From Methanobacteriota archaeon (GTDB lineage: Archaea; JAADCQ01; Methanopyri; Methanopyrales; Methanopyraceae): a DNA stretch of 62,638 bases. This document shows positions 6,841-57,451 of this stretch, piece after piece. Numbering within the stretch: position 1 is the stretch's first letter; each line of letters opens with the position of its first letter. A program made the translations under genes and the position numbers. The stretch spans positions 84,372 to 147,009 of the forward strand of contig JAMOPO010000052.1 of assembly GCA_027064425.1 (NCBI GenBank), given 5' to 3'. The notes beneath the pieces were generated by a model that did no database searches, was not told the origin of the DNA, and saw only the letters and a list, made by a program, of their open reading frames with translations.

Positions 6841-7962
6841 CTACTCCCACCCCTGCCGGCGATCGCCCGAGCAGACTCTTCTCGGCTCGATCCCCCGGCA
6901 CTCCAGCCAGTCCTTGAGCCGTCCGTGGATGACGATCGGCACCCTACTCATCTCCTCGACGGACCTGCACCCCGCCATCATCATCGCGATCTTCACCTCC
7001 CGCGCCACGGTCTTCAGGAAGCGCACGCACCCTGACACGCCCTCCGACAGCAGCTTCCTAAGCACCGGAAGGGCCATGCCCGCGCAGTCGCCGCCCAGCG
7101 CCAGCACCTTCGCCACGTCAAGTCCGCCCCGCACACCCCCCGTCCCGATCACCGGCATGTCAGGACCCACGACCCGCCTCACCTCGAGGATGGACGCGGC
7201 GGTCGGGACGCCCCACTCCGAGAACGAGTGCCCCACAGGCACCTCACCGTGAGCCTTGGAGCGGATGGCCTCCACCACCGCCCAGTTGGTCCCTCCGGCC
7301 CCACCCACGTCGATCCCGTCCACGAGGTCCTTGACGAGCTCCGCGTCCTCGGACGACACGCCCGCCCCCGTCTCCTTCAGCACCACCGGGACGTCGACCG
7401 CCTCCCGCACCTCCTCCAGCGTCTCCACGAACCCCGACGCGTCGGGCTCGCCCTCCAGCTGCACCGCCTCCTGCAGCACGTTCACGTGCACGGCCAGCGC
7501 GTCTGCATCCACCATGTCCACGACCTCGATCGCCAGGTCCGGCCCGTTCTCCCGCAGCTGCTGCAGCCCTATGTTCGCCAGGATCAAGCCGTCCGGGTAC
7601 TCCTCACGCACCACCTCGAACGTCCAGCGGACCTCCGGGTCCTCCACGCCGGCCCGCTGGCTCCCCACCCCGATCCCGATACCCAGCCTGCGCGCGACCA
7701 CGCCCAGCTTCCGGTTTATCTCGCCCGTCTTGGGGTGACCGCCGGTCATGCCCGCGATGATGAGGGGGAAGGACAGCTCCTTACCGAACAGCCGCACGCT
7801 GGTGTCAACGTCGTCCATGTCCAGCTCCGGAAGCGCCCGGTGCACGAGCTGAACGCACTCGAAGAGCGGGCTCGTGTCGGCCTCCACGTCCTCCCAGACG
7901 CAGGCCAGCACGTGCTCCCACTTCCGCTCCCTAGTCCCGTTCCCGGACGACTCGCGTTCCAA
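6841..7962 (-). CDS. fni: type 2 isopentenyl-diphosphate delta-isomerase (FMN/NADPH)
   Basis: Interconverts IPP and DMAPP using reduced FMN, supplying the primer for prenyl synthesis. Family features: an N-terminal RKWEHV near residue 13, PLIIAGMTGG near residue 65, VGSQRAG near 98, and the C-terminal flavin-phosphate loop GTGGVRGGLDVAKVLALG near residue 280. It is 373 aa, normal for the family. The TTG start at 7962 lies 32 bases inside the end of ipk, preceded by GGGGGAAG; a later start would remove the conserved RK.EH motif. It belongs to the ipk-fni-rnj-idsA operon. Confidence 0.95.
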   Translation of the reverse strand: MERESSGNGTRERKWEHVLACVWEDVEADTSPLFECVQLVHRALPELDMDDVDTSVRLFGKELSFPLIIAGMTGGHPKTGEINRKLGVVARRLGIGIGVGSQRAGVEDPEVRWTFEVVREEYPDGLILANIGLQQLRENGPDLAIEVVDMVDADALAVHVNVLQEAVQLEGEPDASGFVETLEEVREAVDVPVVLKETGAGVSSEDAELVKDLVDGIDVGGAGGTNWAVVEAIRSKAHGEVPVGHSFSEWGVPTAASILEVRRVVGPDMPVIGTGGVRGGLDVAKVLALGGDCAGMALPVLRKLLSEGVSGCVRFLKTVAREVKIAMMMAGCRSVEEMSRVPIVIHGRLKDWLECRGIEPRRVCSGDRRQGWE

Positions 7963-8650
7963 CCCGCTTCCCCCGGAGGAACCTCTCGACGTTGTCCGGG
8001 TCGCTCGCGTCGAAGAGGAACACCTCCGCGCCCCGCTCCGCGATCCGAGCCGCCCGGAGCAGCTTCTCCGAGATCCCGCCGGTCACGTCCACCCCGGCCG
8101 CGCCATCCAGCTCCCGGGCCAGCTCCCGCGCCTCCTCCGGGGTCAGCTCCTTAAACGGCTCACCGACCCCGGGACGCTCCGGGTAAACACCGTCCACGTC
8201 CATCCCGAACCCTACCCGCTCCACCCGCAGGGTCGAAACGCGCTCCAGTATCTCATCCCCAGACATGATCCTGAACCCATCCTCCGCCGGCACCACGTCC
8301 CCGTAGAGCAGAGGGATGCAGTCGCGCTCGAGCACATCGATCACGACGTTCAGCGAGTGCAGCAGCACCGCGGGAGGTAGCGGGTAGACCCGGACCCCCG
8401 CCTCCACCGCCGCCTCCTCGAACACCCGGACCAGCTCGTGCATCGCCCATCTAACCTTTGTAACACCCTCCTCCAACGACTCCACCTCGCTGGCCGCGTG
8501 GTGGCCGAAGGATCCCCCGCCGTGCACGAGGATCAGCCGACCCTCCCACCCCGCCAGCCTCTCTACCAGCTCCCTTATCAGCTCCTCCCGCGCGGTCATC
8601 GGCCGATTCTTGTCCGTGATCACGCTCCCACCGAGCTTCAGGGCCAGCAG
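7931..8650 (-). CDS. ipk: isopentenyl phosphate kinase, probable CTG start
   Basis: Amino acid kinase-family enzyme phosphorylating isopentenyl phosphate to IPP in the modified archaeal mevalonate pathway. The N-terminal LKLGGSVIT and the loop HGGGSFGHHAA with the catalytic His are present. A GDxVP segment (YGDVVP) and the C-terminal MDVDGVYP and VDVTGGI follow. The family N-terminus must begin right at the LALKLGGS segment, but no in-frame ATG, GTG or TTG exists there or in the unlikely sequence upstream. CTG at 8650 follows GGGGGG by nine bases, giving 239 aa. It heads the isoprenoid operon and is divergent from thiI. Confidence 0.9.
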   Translation of the reverse strand: MLALKLGGSVITDKNRPMTAREELIRELVERLAGWEGRLILVHGGGSFGHHAASEVESLEEGVTKVRWAMHELVRVFEEAAVEAGVRVYPLPPAVLLHSLNVVIDVLERDCIPLLYGDVVPAEDGFRIMSGDEILERVSTLRVERVGFGMDVDGVYPERPGVGEPFKELTPEEARELARELDGAAGVDVTGGISEKLLRAARIAERGAEVFLFDASDPDNVERFLRGKRVGTRVVRERD

Positions 8651-8740
8651 CCCGGAACACCCCCCGGGCGATGAGGATACCCGAGGCCTCGGGGACCGAT
8701 GACCGAAGCGGTGGGCGACCGAGCCCGCGGGGGTGGCCCG

Positions 8741-40363: not shown

Positions 40364-41272
40364 CTACTCCAGCTCCTCCCACCTGCGCACGTTCTCCTCG
40401 CCCGGCTTCCACTCGGCGGCGACGTTGTCTCCCACGCTCACGCCCAGCTCCCTCGCCACCGGCTCGCACTTCGCTCGGAGCAGAAAGTACACGGGAACGT
40501 CCGGGAAGGGCTCCTCCGGGATCGACTCGAAGTTCCCCTGCCCCTTGGACAGTACCAGGTCGGCGCTCTCCAGCGCCTCGCGCAGCTCGGACCCCGCCTC
40601 GGTCACCAGCAAACCCAGCATCTCAGCCCCGGTGTCGATGACCTCGCACACATCCGTCAGCCCGACCTCCCGGGCATCCTCCAGCGTCGCGTCGTTGACG
40701 ATCGGGGCGCCCCGAACCACCGCGATGACCTCCGCCTCCAGGTCCTCCGTGAGCACCTCGATCAGGAGCCGGTCGAAGGCGATCTCGCCGGCGTTGTCGC
40801 ACAGGTACACGATCCTCTTCCCGCGCAGCTCGTCCGGGTCCAGGTCGTACACGGCGAACTCGGGCTTCCGCACCTCCTCGCGCAGCTCCTCAACGTCGAA
40901 CTCGTGCCCGGCCACCGCGAAATCGATCGTGTTGCCCACGATCGCCGCTGCGGCCGCTCGCCTCAGCCGCTCCTCGGGGTCCAGCCCCTCCAGCACCCGC
41001 TCAAGCTTTTCCACGAGCTCCAAGGCGACCCGGTTGGCCCGCCTCTTCTCCTCCTCGTAGGGGTCCTCGTCCTCGGCGTACTTCATCACGGCCCGCTGGG
41101 CCTCCGTGCCCAGGCGCGGGGGCTGCGGTGTGGGCTCGCGCTCGTAGAGCTCCAGCACCCGTCGGGTGGCCTCCGCGATCGCCCGCCCCCTGTCCTCCCT
41201 CGGAACGGCCCTGTTGATCGTGTTGACCGCGATCTCCAGCACGCAGGGGATGCACTCCGGGACCGCCCGCAG
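40364..41272 (-). CDS. DUF89 / ARMT1-like metal-dependent phosphatase, probable CTG start
   Basis: A 302-residue DUF89 protein, a family that includes damage-control phosphatases acting on reactive sugar phosphates. PECIPC at the N-terminus, NTIDF near residue 115, LCDNAGEIAFDRLL near 150-163, SKGQGNFES near 255, and LLRAKCEPVA near 275 are family landmarks (the DNAGE Asp/Asn bind metal). The N-terminus must start just before AVPECIPC, where no ATG, GTG or TTG is in frame. CTG 41272 lies seven bases after GGGGGG. The next in-frame GTG upstream (41347) would overlap the preceding gene by about 60 bases. Confidence 0.85.
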   Translation of the reverse strand: MRAVPECIPCVLEIAVNTINRAVPREDRGRAIAEATRRVLELYEREPTPQPPRLGTEAQRAVMKYAEDEDPYEEEKRRANRVALELVEKLERVLEGLDPEERLRRAAAAAIVGNTIDFAVAGHEFDVEELREEVRKPEFAVYDLDPDELRGKRIVYLCDNAGEIAFDRLLIEVLTEDLEAEVIAVVRGAPIVNDATLEDAREVGLTDVCEVIDTGAEMLGLLVTEAGSELREALESADLVLSKGQGNFESIPEEPFPDVPVYFLLRAKCEPVARELGVSVGDNVAAEWKPGEENVRRWEELE

Positions 41273-41286
41273 ACCGGCTCCCCCCG

Positions 41287-43784: not shown

Positions 43785-44693
43785 GTGACCGAGCTCGAGG
43801 TGAACGGGGTGCCGGTGGAGGACACGTACTGCGAGGCGTTCAAGGGCCTCTACGCCCGGTTCATCGTGACCGCGGCCGACGAGCGTCCGCTGAAGGAGGC
43901 CGCCGAAAACGTCGCCGCCCTGCCCGCCACCGTGTTCGGCGAGTCGGAGGCGGGCGTCGAGCGCTGGCTCGACGAGGACGAGACCCCGGACGGCCGACCC
44001 GGGTTCATCGCGCAGGTGTGGGTCGAGCACGGGGATAAGGCCGTCGAGAAGCTCGAGCGGGAGCTGGGCAAGCGGATCCGCCAGGGCGTCCTCGTGCGCC
44101 CCACCACCCGAGTCTTCGACGCCTGCGAGGACCCGGTCGGCTACATCGACACCGAGCGCCCCATCGGGCGCTGCGGGGACGGGTACGAGTACACCGACGT
44201 CAAGTTCGGCCGCGAGGTCGTCAACATCCCGATCATGATGGGGGAGTTCCAGATCGAGCGACGCCTGGGCTACGGCGAGGGAGTTGCCGGGGGCCTCGTC
44301 TGGCTCTTCTGCGAGGACACGGAGGCGGCCCTGGAGGCCGGATACCGCGCGGTCGACGCGCTCAAGGATCTCGAGGGCGTCATCACCCCGTTCAACGTCT
44401 GCGCCGCGGGGTCCAAGCCCGAGACCATCTACCCCGACATCGGACCCACCACCAACCACCCGTACTGCCCCACGCTCCGGGACCGGATCCTGGACTCCAA
44501 GGTGCCCGAAGGCGTGGAGGCGATCCCGGAGATCGTGATCAACGGAGTCTCCCTGGACGCCGTCAAGAAGGCCATCCGTATCGCCATCGAGGCGGCGACC
44601 GAGGTCGATGGCGTGGTCAAGGTCACCGCCGGGAACTTCGGAGGCAAGCTCGGCGACTATCGAATCCCGCTCCGGGAGTGCCTGCGAGAATGA
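43785..44693 (+). CDS. formylmethanofuran:H4MPT formyltransferase-like paralogue
   Basis: A 302-residue protein of the Ftr/FhcD family, which moves the formyl group from formylmethanofuran to tetrahydromethanopterin in CO2 reduction. Family landmarks: the N-terminal VNGVPVEDTYCEAF, DETPDGRPGF near 65, GVAGGLVWLF near 165, and the C-terminal VKVTAGNFGGKLGDY. From memory, the characterised M. kandleri Ftr differs markedly, so this is probably the second, diverged copy, and activity should not be assumed. GTG 43785 has GGGAGGGGATA ahead. The stop overlaps the kinase gene (ATGA). Confidence 0.85.
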   Translation: MTELEVNGVPVEDTYCEAFKGLYARFIVTAADERPLKEAAENVAALPATVFGESEAGVERWLDEDETPDGRPGFIAQVWVEHGDKAVEKLERELGKRIRQGVLVRPTTRVFDACEDPVGYIDTERPIGRCGDGYEYTDVKFGREVVNIPIMMGEFQIERRLGYGEGVAGGLVWLFCEDTEAALEAGYRAVDALKDLEGVITPFNVCAAGSKPETIYPDIGPTTNHPYCPTLRDRILDSKVPEGVEAIPEIVINGVSLDAVKKAIRIAIEAATEVDGVVKVTAGNFGGKLGDYRIPLRECLRE

Positions 44694-53383: not shown

Positions 53384-53404
53384 CCCGGGCCGGGGGCCAC
53401 GCCC

Positions 53405-53941
53405 CTGCCCCATAACGTCGTTCTTACCGGCAGGCCCGGCGTCGGCAAGACCACGATTTGTCTCAAGGTTCGAAACGATTTGGAGGACCGCGGCTACACC
53501 GTCGGCGGCATTTACTGCCCCGAGGTGCGGCGCGGCGGCCGGCGCGTAGGGTTCAAGATCGTCGACCTGACCGAGGACGACGAGTACCCGCTCGCGGAGG
53601 TGGGCGCCCCCGGCCCGCGCGTGGGCCGCTACGGCGTTTACGTTGAGAACCTCGAGCGCGCGGCCGACTCCATCGAGCGCGCCGTCGAGGAGGCGGACCT
53701 GGTCATCGTGGACGAGGTCGGCCCGATGGAGCTCAAGTCCGAGCGGTTCGTCGAGGCCGTCGAGACCGCGGCCGACGCCGAGACCCCGACCATTTTCGTC
53801 GTCCACGAGCGTTCCCGGCACCCGACCGTGGTCGACCTCCGCGAGCGCCGCGACGACGCTGAACGCTACCGCGTCACGCTCGAGAACCGGGACCGACTTC
53901 CGGAGGAGATCGTCCAGCTGGTGCTGGACTGGCTCGAGTAA
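53405..53941 (+). CDS. THEP1-type nucleoside-triphosphatase, probable CTG start
   Basis: A 178-residue P-loop NTPase of the THEP1 family. NVVLTGRPGVGKTTICLKV (Walker A) opens the protein, DLVIVDEVGPMELKSERFVEAV near 97-118 contains Walker B, and VVHERSRHPTVVDLR follows. Between the rpl10 stop and Walker A this frame has no ATG, GTG or TTG (the first TTG is beyond Walker A at 53480). CTG 53405 lies eight bases after GGGGG, giving the normal family N-terminus. Physiological role unknown; hydrolyses NTPs in vitro in other species. Confidence 0.88.
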   Translation: MPHNVVLTGRPGVGKTTICLKVRNDLEDRGYTVGGIYCPEVRRGGRRVGFKIVDLTEDDEYPLAEVGAPGPRVGRYGVYVENLERAADSIERAVEEADLVIVDEVGPMELKSERFVEAVETAADAETPTIFVVHERSRHPTVVDLRERRDDAERYRVTLENRDRLPEEIVQLVLDWLE

Positions 53942-53959: not shown

Positions 53960-55639
53960 GTGGAGAGGGTCACCTGCGACGTCCTCGTGATCGGGGGCGG
54001 CGGCGCGGCCCTACGGGCCGCGATAGAGGCGGCCCGCCACGACCTGAGCGTCGTGATCGTGTCCAAAGGCCCCCTCGGCCGGAGCGGCTGCACCGTCATG
54101 GCCGAGGGCGGTTACAACGCCGTCCTGAGGACCGAGTCCCCCGACGACTCCTTCGAGCTGCACTTCCGGGACACCGTGGAGGGAGGCTCCTACCTCAACG
54201 ACCAGCGACTGGTCGAGATCCTGGTTCGGGAGGCGCCCGACCGCCTCCTCGACCTGGAGAACTACGGGGCCGTGTTCACCCGCAACGAGGACGGCACCCT
54301 CGCCCAGCGCCCCTTCGGCGGTCAATCCCGACCCCGGACGTGCTACGCCGGCGACCGCACCGGCCACGAGATCGCCATGGCCCTGCTGGACGAGGTGCGC
54401 CGCCTGGACCGCGTCCGCACGCTCGAGAACGTGATGGCCTACCGGCTGATCAAGGACGACGACGGCCGCATCGCGGGCGCGCTGTGCCTGGACCTGGAGC
54501 GGGAGGACACCCTCGTCGTCCTGGCCCACGCCACCATCCTCGCCACCGGCGGGGCCGGCCAGATTTACCCGGTCACCACCAACCCCGCGTACAAGACCGG
54601 CGACGGGTACGTCATGGCCCTGAAGGCGGGCTGCCCGCTCATCGACATGGAGATGGTCCAGTTCCATCCCACCGGGATGGTGTACCCCGAGAGCGCCCGG
54701 GGCATCCTCGTCACCGAGGCCGTCCGCGGCGAGGGCGGCCGCCTATACAACGCGGAAGGAGAGCGCTTCATGAAGCGGTACGACCCCGACCGGATGGAGC
54801 TGGCGACCCGGGACGTGGTGGCCCGAGCCATCTACCGCGAGATCAAGGAGGGTCGGGGCACCGAGCACGGGGGCGTGTACCTCGACCTCACCCACCTGCC
54901 CGACGAGGTGATCGAGACGAAGCTCGAAACCACCCTCCGCCAGTTCCTCCGCTACGGGATCGACATCCGTGAGGAGCCGATGGAGGTAGCGCCCACCGCC
55001 CACCACTTCATGGGAGGCGTCCCCATCAACGAGCGCGCCGAGACCCCGCTCCCCCGACTCTTCGCCTGCGGTGAGGTCACCGGCGGCGTCCACGGGGCCA
55101 ACCGGCTGGGAGGTAACGCGCTGGCCGACACCCAGGTGTTCGGGTGCCGAGCCGGCCTGTACGCCGCGAAGCTCGCCCGCCGGCTTCGAGCGCGAGGGGA
55201 GCGACCCCGCGTGAGCAGGCTCCGACTGCTGGATCTCGAGTCCAAGCTCTGGGAGCGGCTCGGAGAGGAGGACCCCCTCGAGGTCCGCCGCGAGCTCCGA
55301 AAGACCATGTGGGATCACGTGGGCCTCGAGCGCTCCGAGCGCGGGCTGAAGAAGGCCATCAAGCGCCTGGAGGAGCTCAAGCGCCGCGTGGAAGAGCGCG
55401 GCGTCGACGACGGCCCCGGGCTGCGGCTCGCCCTCGAGACGGTCAACATGATCGAGGTCGGGCTGGCCGTCGCCCGCTCCGCACTCTTCCGTCGTGAGAG
55501 TCGAGGCGCCCATTACCGCACGGACTACCCCGAGCGCGACGACGAGAACTGGCTCAAGCACACCGTCTACCGGCCCGACGGGAGCCTCGGGACCAAGCCG
55601 GTCGACGTCAGCCGGATAGATCCTCGATCACAGGATTGA
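53960..55639 (+). CDS. tfrA: succinate dehydrogenase/fumarate reductase flavoprotein, TfrA-like
   Basis: A 559-residue FAD protein. VLVIGGGGAALRAAIEAAR near residues 9-27 is the FAD-binding loop. GRSGCTVMAEGGYNA near 40 and the His of flavin attachment region, QFHPTGMVYPESARGILVTEAVRGEGG near 235-260, HHFMGGVPIN near 352 and GEVTGGVHGANRLGGNAL near 372 are active-site motifs. In methanogens this subunit works with an Fe-S/heterodisulfide subunit TfrB, using coenzymes M and B to reduce fumarate. The partner gene is absent here. GTG 53960; 32-base convergent overlap with ade. Confidence 0.88.
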   Translation: MERVTCDVLVIGGGGAALRAAIEAARHDLSVVIVSKGPLGRSGCTVMAEGGYNAVLRTESPDDSFELHFRDTVEGGSYLNDQRLVEILVREAPDRLLDLENYGAVFTRNEDGTLAQRPFGGQSRPRTCYAGDRTGHEIAMALLDEVRRLDRVRTLENVMAYRLIKDDDGRIAGALCLDLEREDTLVVLAHATILATGGAGQIYPVTTNPAYKTGDGYVMALKAGCPLIDMEMVQFHPTGMVYPESARGILVTEAVRGEGGRLYNAEGERFMKRYDPDRMELATRDVVARAIYREIKEGRGTEHGGVYLDLTHLPDEVIETKLETTLRQFLRYGIDIREEPMEVAPTAHHFMGGVPINERAETPLPRLFACGEVTGGVHGANRLGGNALADTQVFGCRAGLYAAKLARRLRARGERPRVSRLRLLDLESKLWERLGEEDPLEVRRELRKTMWDHVGLERSERGLKKAIKRLEELKRRVEERGVDDGPGLRLALETVNMIEVGLAVARSALFRRESRGAHYRTDYPERDDENWLKHTVYRPDGSLGTKPVDVSRIDPRSQD

Positions 55640-57254
55640 CCAACCGGACCTCCTTCCCCTCCACCCGCACCATCCCACGGTCGGTCAGCCGCACCTCCGG
55701 GACCACCGGCAGCGTCACGAAGGAGAGCACCTGGAACGGGTCCCCCTCCACGTCGGACAGCTCGCGCACCCGCTCCAGGACCGACCCGTACGCCTCGACG
55801 AACTCCTCCGGCTCCCGGGATGACATCAACCCCGCCACGTCCAACTCGACCGCCTCGCACCCACCATCCCAGACCACCCCAACGCATCCCCCCAACCGGC
55901 CGGCCAGCCTCACCCCCTCCCGAACCAGCCGCAGGTCCCGGCCGACCACCACCACGTTGTGGGCGTCGTGAGCGACCGTCGTAACCAGCGCGCACTCGAG
56001 GTCGTCGATCCCCTCCAGGAAGCCCAGCGACCAGCTCCCCTCCCCGTACCGGTCCACCACGACCAGGAACGCGATCCCCTCCTCCATCACCCTACCGTCC
56101 CGAATCGTGATCTCCTCCACGACCTCCCGGGTCCTGATCGTCCCCGGCCTGACCCCCACGCACCTCACCCGGTACCTACCGTCCTCGAACCCGATATCCT
56201 CCGGGTCGACGCCCACCTCCACCCGGGGAAGCTCCGCCTCCGCCCCCTCGAACTCCGCATCCTCCCTCGGGGTTCCCTCCAGGAAGACCCGCCGGGGTTC
56301 GACTTCCTCCAACCCGCTCAGCACGACCACGTCCGCGTGGTAGCCGGGGGCCAACCGACCGGTCCTCAGCCCGTAGCACAGGGACGGGTTCAGGGTCACC
56401 GTCCCGAGCGCCTCCAGCGGGTCGAACCCCGCCTCCACGGCCCGCCTGACCATCTTGGCCAGCGAGACCTCGTCCATGTCGCTCGCGTGGAGATCATCCG
56501 TCACGAAGCACACGCCGCTGAGATCGTCCAGCGCCTCGAGGGCGGCCTCCAGGTCCCGGGACGAGGAACCCTCCCGGACGAACGTCCACACGCCCAGCTC
56601 ACGCCTCCACCGGAACTCCTCCCCCGTCGAGCACTCGTGGTCGGTCTCCGGCCCCGCGGAAAAGTACCGCGCGGCCCCGGGACCCACGAGGCCGGGGGCG
56701 TGCCCGTCGACCCTCAGCCCCATCCGCCGGGCCAGCCGCACGAGCTCGTCCTTCCGCCCCTCCAGGACCCCCTCCACGTCCATCATCTCGCCCAGCGCCA
56801 CCACCATCGGGTGGTCGGCGTACCGCTCCACGATCTCCGGCGTCACCTTCCCCCGAACGGTCTCGAACGGCTCCCCAAGGGCCGGCACGCACGATGGAAG
56901 CGCCAGGTAGAACTTGAAAGGTCGGGCCCGCTCGGCGGTTCTCAGAGCCCACCTCAACCCCTCCTCGCCCGCCACGTTCACGACCTCGTGTGGATCCCAC
57001 ACGACCGACGTCACGCCGCGCTCGGAGACGACCCGCGCGTAGCCGGGCGGGCTCAGACCGGAGCTCTCCACGTGCACGTGAGCGTCCACGAAGCCCGGGC
57101 AGATAACCCCGTCGACCTCGATCACGTCCACGTCGCCCAGCTCGTCGGGCAGGTCGGAGAACACGCCCAGGATGCGACCCCTCTCCCAGACGACGTAGCC
57201 GGGACGAACGCGCGAGAACCAGGGGTCAACGACGCGACCGTGAAGCGCCCTCAG
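55608..57254 (-). CDS. ade: adenine deaminase, probable CTG start
   Basis: A 548-residue amidohydrolase that converts adenine to hypoxanthine. The metal motif GFVDAHVHVESS is near residues 61-72; EVNVAG-like and GEMMDVEGVL near 150, GHAPG near 188, DDLHASDM near 250 and the C-terminal VTTVAHDAHNVVVVG near 425 are present. The N-terminal family segment (RVVDPWFSRVRPGYVVWERGRILGV) is fully encoded upstream of the first GTG (57164), but has no ATG/GTG/TTG. CTG 57254, seven bases after GGGGGG, begins exactly there. Starting at 57164 would remove a conserved beta domain strand set. Confidence 0.9.
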   Translation of the reverse strand: MRALHGRVVDPWFSRVRPGYVVWERGRILGVFSDLPDELGDVDVIEVDGVICPGFVDAHVHVESSGLSPPGYARVVSERGVTSVVWDPHEVVNVAGEEGLRWALRTAERARPFKFYLALPSCVPALGEPFETVRGKVTPEIVERYADHPMVVALGEMMDVEGVLEGRKDELVRLARRMGLRVDGHAPGLVGPGAARYFSAGPETDHECSTGEEFRWRRELGVWTFVREGSSSRDLEAALEALDDLSGVCFVTDDLHASDMDEVSLAKMVRRAVEAGFDPLEALGTVTLNPSLCYGLRTGRLAPGYHADVVVLSGLEEVEPRRVFLEGTPREDAEFEGAEAELPRVEVGVDPEDIGFEDGRYRVRCVGVRPGTIRTREVVEEITIRDGRVMEEGIAFLVVVDRYGEGSWSLGFLEGIDDLECALVTTVAHDAHNVVVVGRDLRLVREGVRLAGRLGGCVGVVWDGGCEAVELDVAGLMSSREPEEFVEAYGSVLERVRELSDVEGDPFQVLSFVTLPVVPEVRLTDRGMVRVEGKEVRLVNPVIEDLSG

Positions 57255-57451
57255 CGACCGTCCCCCCGAGGGAAGGAGGTACGGCGGGGAGGTAGGCGCG
57301 CGGGGTCATCGGTCGGCTCGTCGGCCCACTCCCCCGCGCTTGTGGCCCGGCGGAGCCCACGCGGGGTCATCCCCGGAGTCTCCGCGTCACCCGCGCCGGT
57401 TGGACCGGGCCGTGCCCCGTCCCCAAGTCGCGGCGTATGAAGTTACCGCCT
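57255..57451 (-). promoter_or_regulatory. ade upstream region with 12-base direct repeat
   Basis: A 197-base gap upstream of ade. CGCGGGGTCATC occurs twice (57299-57310 and 57360-57371), 61 bases apart. On the ade strand it reads GATGACCCCGCG. No clear TATA box or complete C/D architecture was found. Confidence 0.35.

Follow-up and report, generated by a model that had tools for sequence, protein, structure and literature searches.

Comparative sequence support for CTG as a rare start codon behind strong Shine-Dalgarno sequences in Methanopyrus

Introduction

The initiator codons of NCBI translation table 11 include CTG, and rare CTG starts occur in bacteria. The candidate CTG starts described here, from the methanogenic archaeal genus Methanopyrus, resemble the bacterial cases in placing a near-cognate NTG start behind a Shine-Dalgarno (SD) sequence, but they belong to a hyperthermophilic archaeon, involve several housekeeping genes, are CTG in all five genomes compared for two of these genes (argD and an NTPase gene), and elsewhere show exchange with ATG, GTG and TTG between species.

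SD-led initiation in archaea is described at AUG, GUG and UUG, CTG not being named there as a start in the sections of a review that we draw on (PMC7531240). The likeness to this system lies in the strong SD 6–9 nt upstream, the NTG start and presumably the initiator Met-tRNA, whereas the difference is that CTG recurs in several genes of a single genus. Among titles, abstracts and selected passages of the searchable open literature we came across no account of CTG initiation in Methanopyrus or in other archaea; the novelty is provisional.

Materials and methods

The window, the whole stretch of DNA that was analysed (62,638 nucleotides), is part of contig C52 of a 1.54 Mb genome of the genus Methanopyrus (G000). 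Five genomes of the genus were compared: G000, G001 (1.42 Mb), G002 (a single contig of 1,694,969 bp), G003 and G004. The sample covered 604 kb of G000 (~39%), 800 kb of G002 (~47%), 700 kb of G001 (~49%) and small parts of G003 and G004. The G000 sample contains 638 called genes, 446 of them with an ortholog in the G002 sample, and reciprocal best pairs numbered 446 for G000 and G002, 407 for G000 and G001, and 610 for G001 and G002. A loose mapping of orthologs led to many false non-canonical starts through shifts of one or two codons, and the mapping was then tightened. For the count of homologous starts an SD of at least five matched bases was required in both genomes at near-equal spacing, which left 617 unambiguous starts. 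The anti-SD used was the general archaeal one; G-runs can pair with its CCUCC through G-C and G-U pairs. A search for the 3' end of the 16S rRNA with GGTTGGATCACC matched unrelated places only.

Results

The adenine deaminase gene (ade) is encoded on the minus strand (Table 1), and its start region reads TTCCCTC GGGGGG ACGGTCG CTG AGG GCG CTT CAC GGT CGC GTC GTT GAC CCC TGG TTC. The 17 codons from the in-frame TGA (57308-57306) to the CTG hold no ATG, GTG or TTG, and the first such codon past CTG 57254 is GTG 57164, 30 codons downstream. The sequence itself therefore confirms two statements of an earlier sequence-only reading, that a CTG opens the ade frame seven bases after GGGGGG (57267-57262) and that a 30-codon stretch lacking ATG, GTG and TTG precedes the first GTG. 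The encoded protein combines an amidohydrolase domain (PF01979) with an adenine deaminase C-terminal domain (PF13382), both scoring above their gathering thresholds, and matches TIGR01178 with E=2.6e-106 and 356 bits, under the equivalog cut-off of 472.5; the product is thus a member of the Ade-like family and likely functions as Ade, although that model does not certify the function.

Table 1. Coordinates of the proposed CTG-started genes and of the elements around the ade start, numbered along the window
Feature	Position	Strand	Details
ade, adenine deaminase, CTG-started	55608..57254	-	548 aa + stop; PF01979 + PF13382 above cut-off
CTG, proposed ade start codon	57252..57254	-	TTG at homologous codon in G004; conservation onset
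GGGGGG Shine-Dalgarno-like run, 7 nt before CTG	57262..57267	-	sequence; also present in G001 and G002
TGA, in-frame, bounding the upstream extent of the ade start	57306..57308	-	sequence
THEP1-like NTPase, start CTG 53405	53405..53941	+	GGGGG at 53392-53396; PF03266
ARMT1-like damage-control phosphatase, start CTG 41272	40364..41272	-	GGGGGG at 41280-41285; PF01937
Isopentenyl phosphate kinase, start CTG 8650 (or next CTG)	7931..8650	-	GGGGGG at 8660-8665; NF040647

The same reading had taken these 30 codons to encode the N-terminus of Ade, and profile, structure-alignment and genus-level comparisons all support this. In the CTG-started protein, alignment to HMMs of related amidohydrolases (dihydroorotases, PRK09237) sets in at residue 5, against profile positions 6-9, and residues 5-71 align to residues 10-77 of the solved structure 3mkv; extension to the CTG raises the score of the adenine deaminase HMM little, from 354.3 to 356.3 bits. 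The four ade orthologs of the genus keep a GR(V/F)VDPWF motif in the N-terminal stretch, where over 37 columns changes at codon positions 1, 2 and 3 number 15, 3 and 17, the second position being the rarest, and conservation falls off directly upstream of the CTG position. G004 carries TTG at the homologous codon, 6 nt downstream of AGGGGG(TG), and the conserved protein sequence starts there. Comparison thus indicates that the 30 N-terminal codons are translated. Counted against the CTG reading is the TCG, a non-NTG codon, which G001 and G002 carry at the CTG position behind the same run of six Gs; in these two genomes an in-frame GTG lies 16 codons upstream of the TCG, inside a conserved RNA element.

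This H/ACA-like guide RNA element lies in the gap that separates ade from the upstream gene, at window positions 57341-57411 on the minus strand, and a second conserved hairpin extends to about 57290. It gives a weak match to the Rfam family Pab160 (28 bits against a gathering score of 47.4, E=0.011) and is kept in four Methanopyrus genomes. Near ade of relatives, sR60 and other families of C/D-box RNAs give weak matches (L012 4374-4430, minus strand; L014 455-509, plus strand).

The sequence-only reading had counted four CTG cases behind five or six Gs in the window, giving coordinates for ade alone. Four were found, at 57254, 53405, 41272 and 8650, and relatives support every one of them. 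All five genomes have CTG as the NTPase start behind GGGGG (GGGAGGG in G004), position 1 of the PF03266 profile aligns at residue 4, and in G002 more than 90 codons downstream of the CTG are free of standard starts. The homologous start of the phosphatase is CTG in G000 and G003, ATG in G001 and G002 and TTG in G004, with five or six Gs ahead in every case. Isopentenyl phosphate kinase scores above the NF040647 cut-off with residue 4 at profile position 3; G004 has ATG in place of this CTG, G001 and G002 have a GTG one codon farther upstream, and G003 is ambiguous. CTG initiation is thus well supported by comparison and accounts best for each of the four window genes. A further CTG behind GGGGG, at 44300, was rejected as a start: the composition of its frame is not that of coding sequence, and the site is covered by another gene.

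Outside the window, a screen based on conservation only, and thus independent of selection by SD, recovered argD, whose proposed CTG start immediately follows the stop codon of the gene before it in all five genomes. Against this start counts an ATG that every genome has 11 codons farther on, but this ATG lacks an SD and is preceded by conserved sequence. The homologous start of a YlqF-like GTPase is CTG in G000, GTG in G003 and ATG in G001 and G002, and one further gene has CTG in G003 and TTG in G002. A check of six genes placed CTG at the onset of the conserved protein, with no usable standard start, in the ade, NTPase, phosphatase, isopentenyl phosphate kinase and GTPase genes. All six CTG starts of G000 have a run of five or six Gs at 7–9 nt. 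Two candidate pairs (G000_572/G002_782 and G000_394/G002_588) were discarded as CTG starts, residues upstream of the CTG being conserved as well.

Behind these G-rich SDs, comparison reveals exchange of CTG with standard codons at homologous starts in ade (CTG/TTG), the phosphatase (CTG/ATG/TTG), the GTPase (CTG/GTG/ATG) and the kinase (CTG/ATG), while the NTPase and argD starts are CTG only, with no exchange. Because only 1 of 36 other columns of the latter two genes that are leucine in all five genomes is invariant CTG, the CTG codon itself seems to be kept there.

Ordinary starts in the conservation-defined G000 set comprise 78 TTG, 74 ATG and 67 GTG; a G-run of at least five precedes about 40% of the ordinary starts of this genome and one of at least six precedes 7%. 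The 617 homologous starts divide into 610 ATG, GTG or TTG, 3 CTG, 2 TCG, 1 ATA and 1 GCG, the TCG and GCG entries looking spurious. When the SD condition was lifted in the tested genome the count was CTG 3, TCG 2 (both ade), GCG 1 and ATC 1, and no sense codon other than CTG took the place of a standard start in two or more genes.

A genome-wide enrichment of five or six Gs ahead of CTG starts, which the sequence-only reading had anticipated, was absent from the plain form of the scan and appeared once a coding-onset filter was applied. In-frame CTGs that precede the first standard start showed no enrichment of five-G runs before them (4/140 versus 1.7%, p=0.22), in a scan that has little power and misses any CTG start with a spurious GTG upstream, 41272 being an example. 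With the filter, CTG gave 3/110 versus 17/6514 in G000 (p=0.004) and, over three genomes, 5/242 versus 35/17411 for other non-canonical codons (p=2e-4), an excess of about ten-fold in which three of the five hits are window cases. CTC, which is as common in the genome as CTG, gave no signal in either the G5 scan or the coding-onset test.

Several other non-standard features were encountered in these comparisons. In a radical-SAM gene (G000 C15 49125, plus strand) with orthologs in G001 and G002, a conserved IPYEIDE begins at a candidate ATH start. A few ATC or ATA starts may exist besides CTG, and the start rule may not be strictly NTG; two ATC/ATA candidates (G000_263 and G000_330) are less clear, since one genome has an ATG or GTG in frame a short way upstream. 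Many start-less candidates were set aside as UGA contexts resembling selenocysteine sites or as broken frames. Among genes with an in-frame TGA and conserved coding on both sides, three look like selenocysteine genes (G000 C15:274918-275874, minus strand; C15:77420-77734, plus strand; G002_530), and for one of these G001 has Cys (TGT) at the TGA position. An ATPase gene (G002_212, C1 near 770,541, plus strand) has an in-frame TGA where G000 has GAG, within sequence well conserved on both sides; a broken gene, a sequencing error and recoding are the alternatives. Finally, residues 264-780 of a 997-aa protein (L037:3734-6724, plus strand; G000 C15 near 304 kb) are present in the G002 and G004 orthologs and absent from those of G001 and G003, and this segment looks like an intein or similar insertion.

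Discussion

From the comparisons above, the main start of ade is very probably CTG 57254, and CTG is best described as a rare but real, partly conserved NTG start that follows a strong SD and serves about 1% of genes. The suggestion that CTG is a regular start codon in this organism stands in part: initiation at CTG has comparative support, but it concerns only ~6 of 638 genes. Likewise, the proposal that a very strong SD lets CTG act is plausible, as six Gs precede four of the six CTG starts of G000 against the 7% of ordinary starts, a comparison limited by the discovery of most of these starts through strong SDs and by the origin of half of the G000 cases in the reader's window, where they were chosen for strong G-runs; runs of five or six Gs are the ordinary SD of this genus. 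The G-runs of the six CTG starts fit a need for a stronger SD.

Two alternatives concern ade alone. Initiation at GTG 57164, leaving the upstream 30 codons untranslated, would make use of the first standard start and agrees with the gain of just 2 bits in the adenine deaminase HMM. It is nonetheless very improbable, as four species keep the protein sequence of those codons and other amidohydrolase models already match the CTG-started form from its residue 5 onward, while the GTG lacks a preceding G-run SD (GAGAGGGGTCGCATCCTGGGC GTG) and valine as a start is not conserved in relatives. Slightly less credible still is entry into ade from an upstream ATG/GTG in another frame (in the window ATGACCCCGCGCGCC...) by frameshifting on the run of six Gs. 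Such an ATG/GTG is present at all four ade loci and is in frame with ade in G001 and G002, but its frame relation to ade varies between species, conservation of the stretch is explained by the H/ACA-like RNA element with its Pab160 match, G004 has a TTG at the right place, and five other genes display the CTG pattern with no H/ACA-like element.

A broader alternative is that start choice is dominated by the SD and is not specific to CTG, near-cognate codons (CTG, ATC, ATA and perhaps TCG) all initiating and CTG being the commonest of them. The radical-SAM gene speaks for this, with conservation setting in at ATC, ATA and ATC behind five or six Gs and with a G002 frame free of standard starts between the upstream stop and a point 21 codons downstream; so does the TCG behind six Gs in ade of G001 and G002. 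We consider it unlikely, since CTG recurs over several independent genes whereas the other codons are confined to one gene each or are apparently spurious, and CTC is silent though equally common in the genome.

For CTG as a rare NTG start, we propose that the first base of the start codon would be weakly discriminated in Methanopyrus, because ATG, GTG and TTG are used about equally, and that the choice of start would be carried largely by strong G-run SDs 6–9 nt upstream. CTG, the remaining NTG codon, would then serve as a rare start in about 1% of genes. Ribosomes would physically initiate at the CTG, enabled by the strong SD, and the ordinary initiator Met-tRNA presumably reads this codon, so that the protein would begin with Met. 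Sequence comparison shows the start positions, the exchange of CTG with standard codons and the invariant CTG of argD and the NTPase. Selection may also keep CTG as a weak fourth NTG start behind a strong SD, as in argD and the NTPase in all five genomes, perhaps for expression level or coupling to the upstream gene, with ATC and ATA forming a rarer tier; this we put forward tentatively, as a possibility somewhat short of even.

The expectation that automated callers mis-start such genes agrees with the description of Prodigal, which leaves ATA, ATT and CTG out of account as starts (PMC2848648). The front ends of CTG-started proteins are probably mis-annotated by standard gene finders, and the N-termini annotated here and in the reference genome of Methanopyrus kandleri need re-checking, at least for argD and the NTPase. 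What is taken as the rule for archaeal start codons comes from a small number of model species and from gene callers unable to propose CTG. Methanopyrus, with its near-equal use of ATG, GTG and TTG and its conserved CTG starts, is a natural setting in which to ask to what extent a strong SD can stand in for the start codon's first base in an organism that grows at very high temperature.
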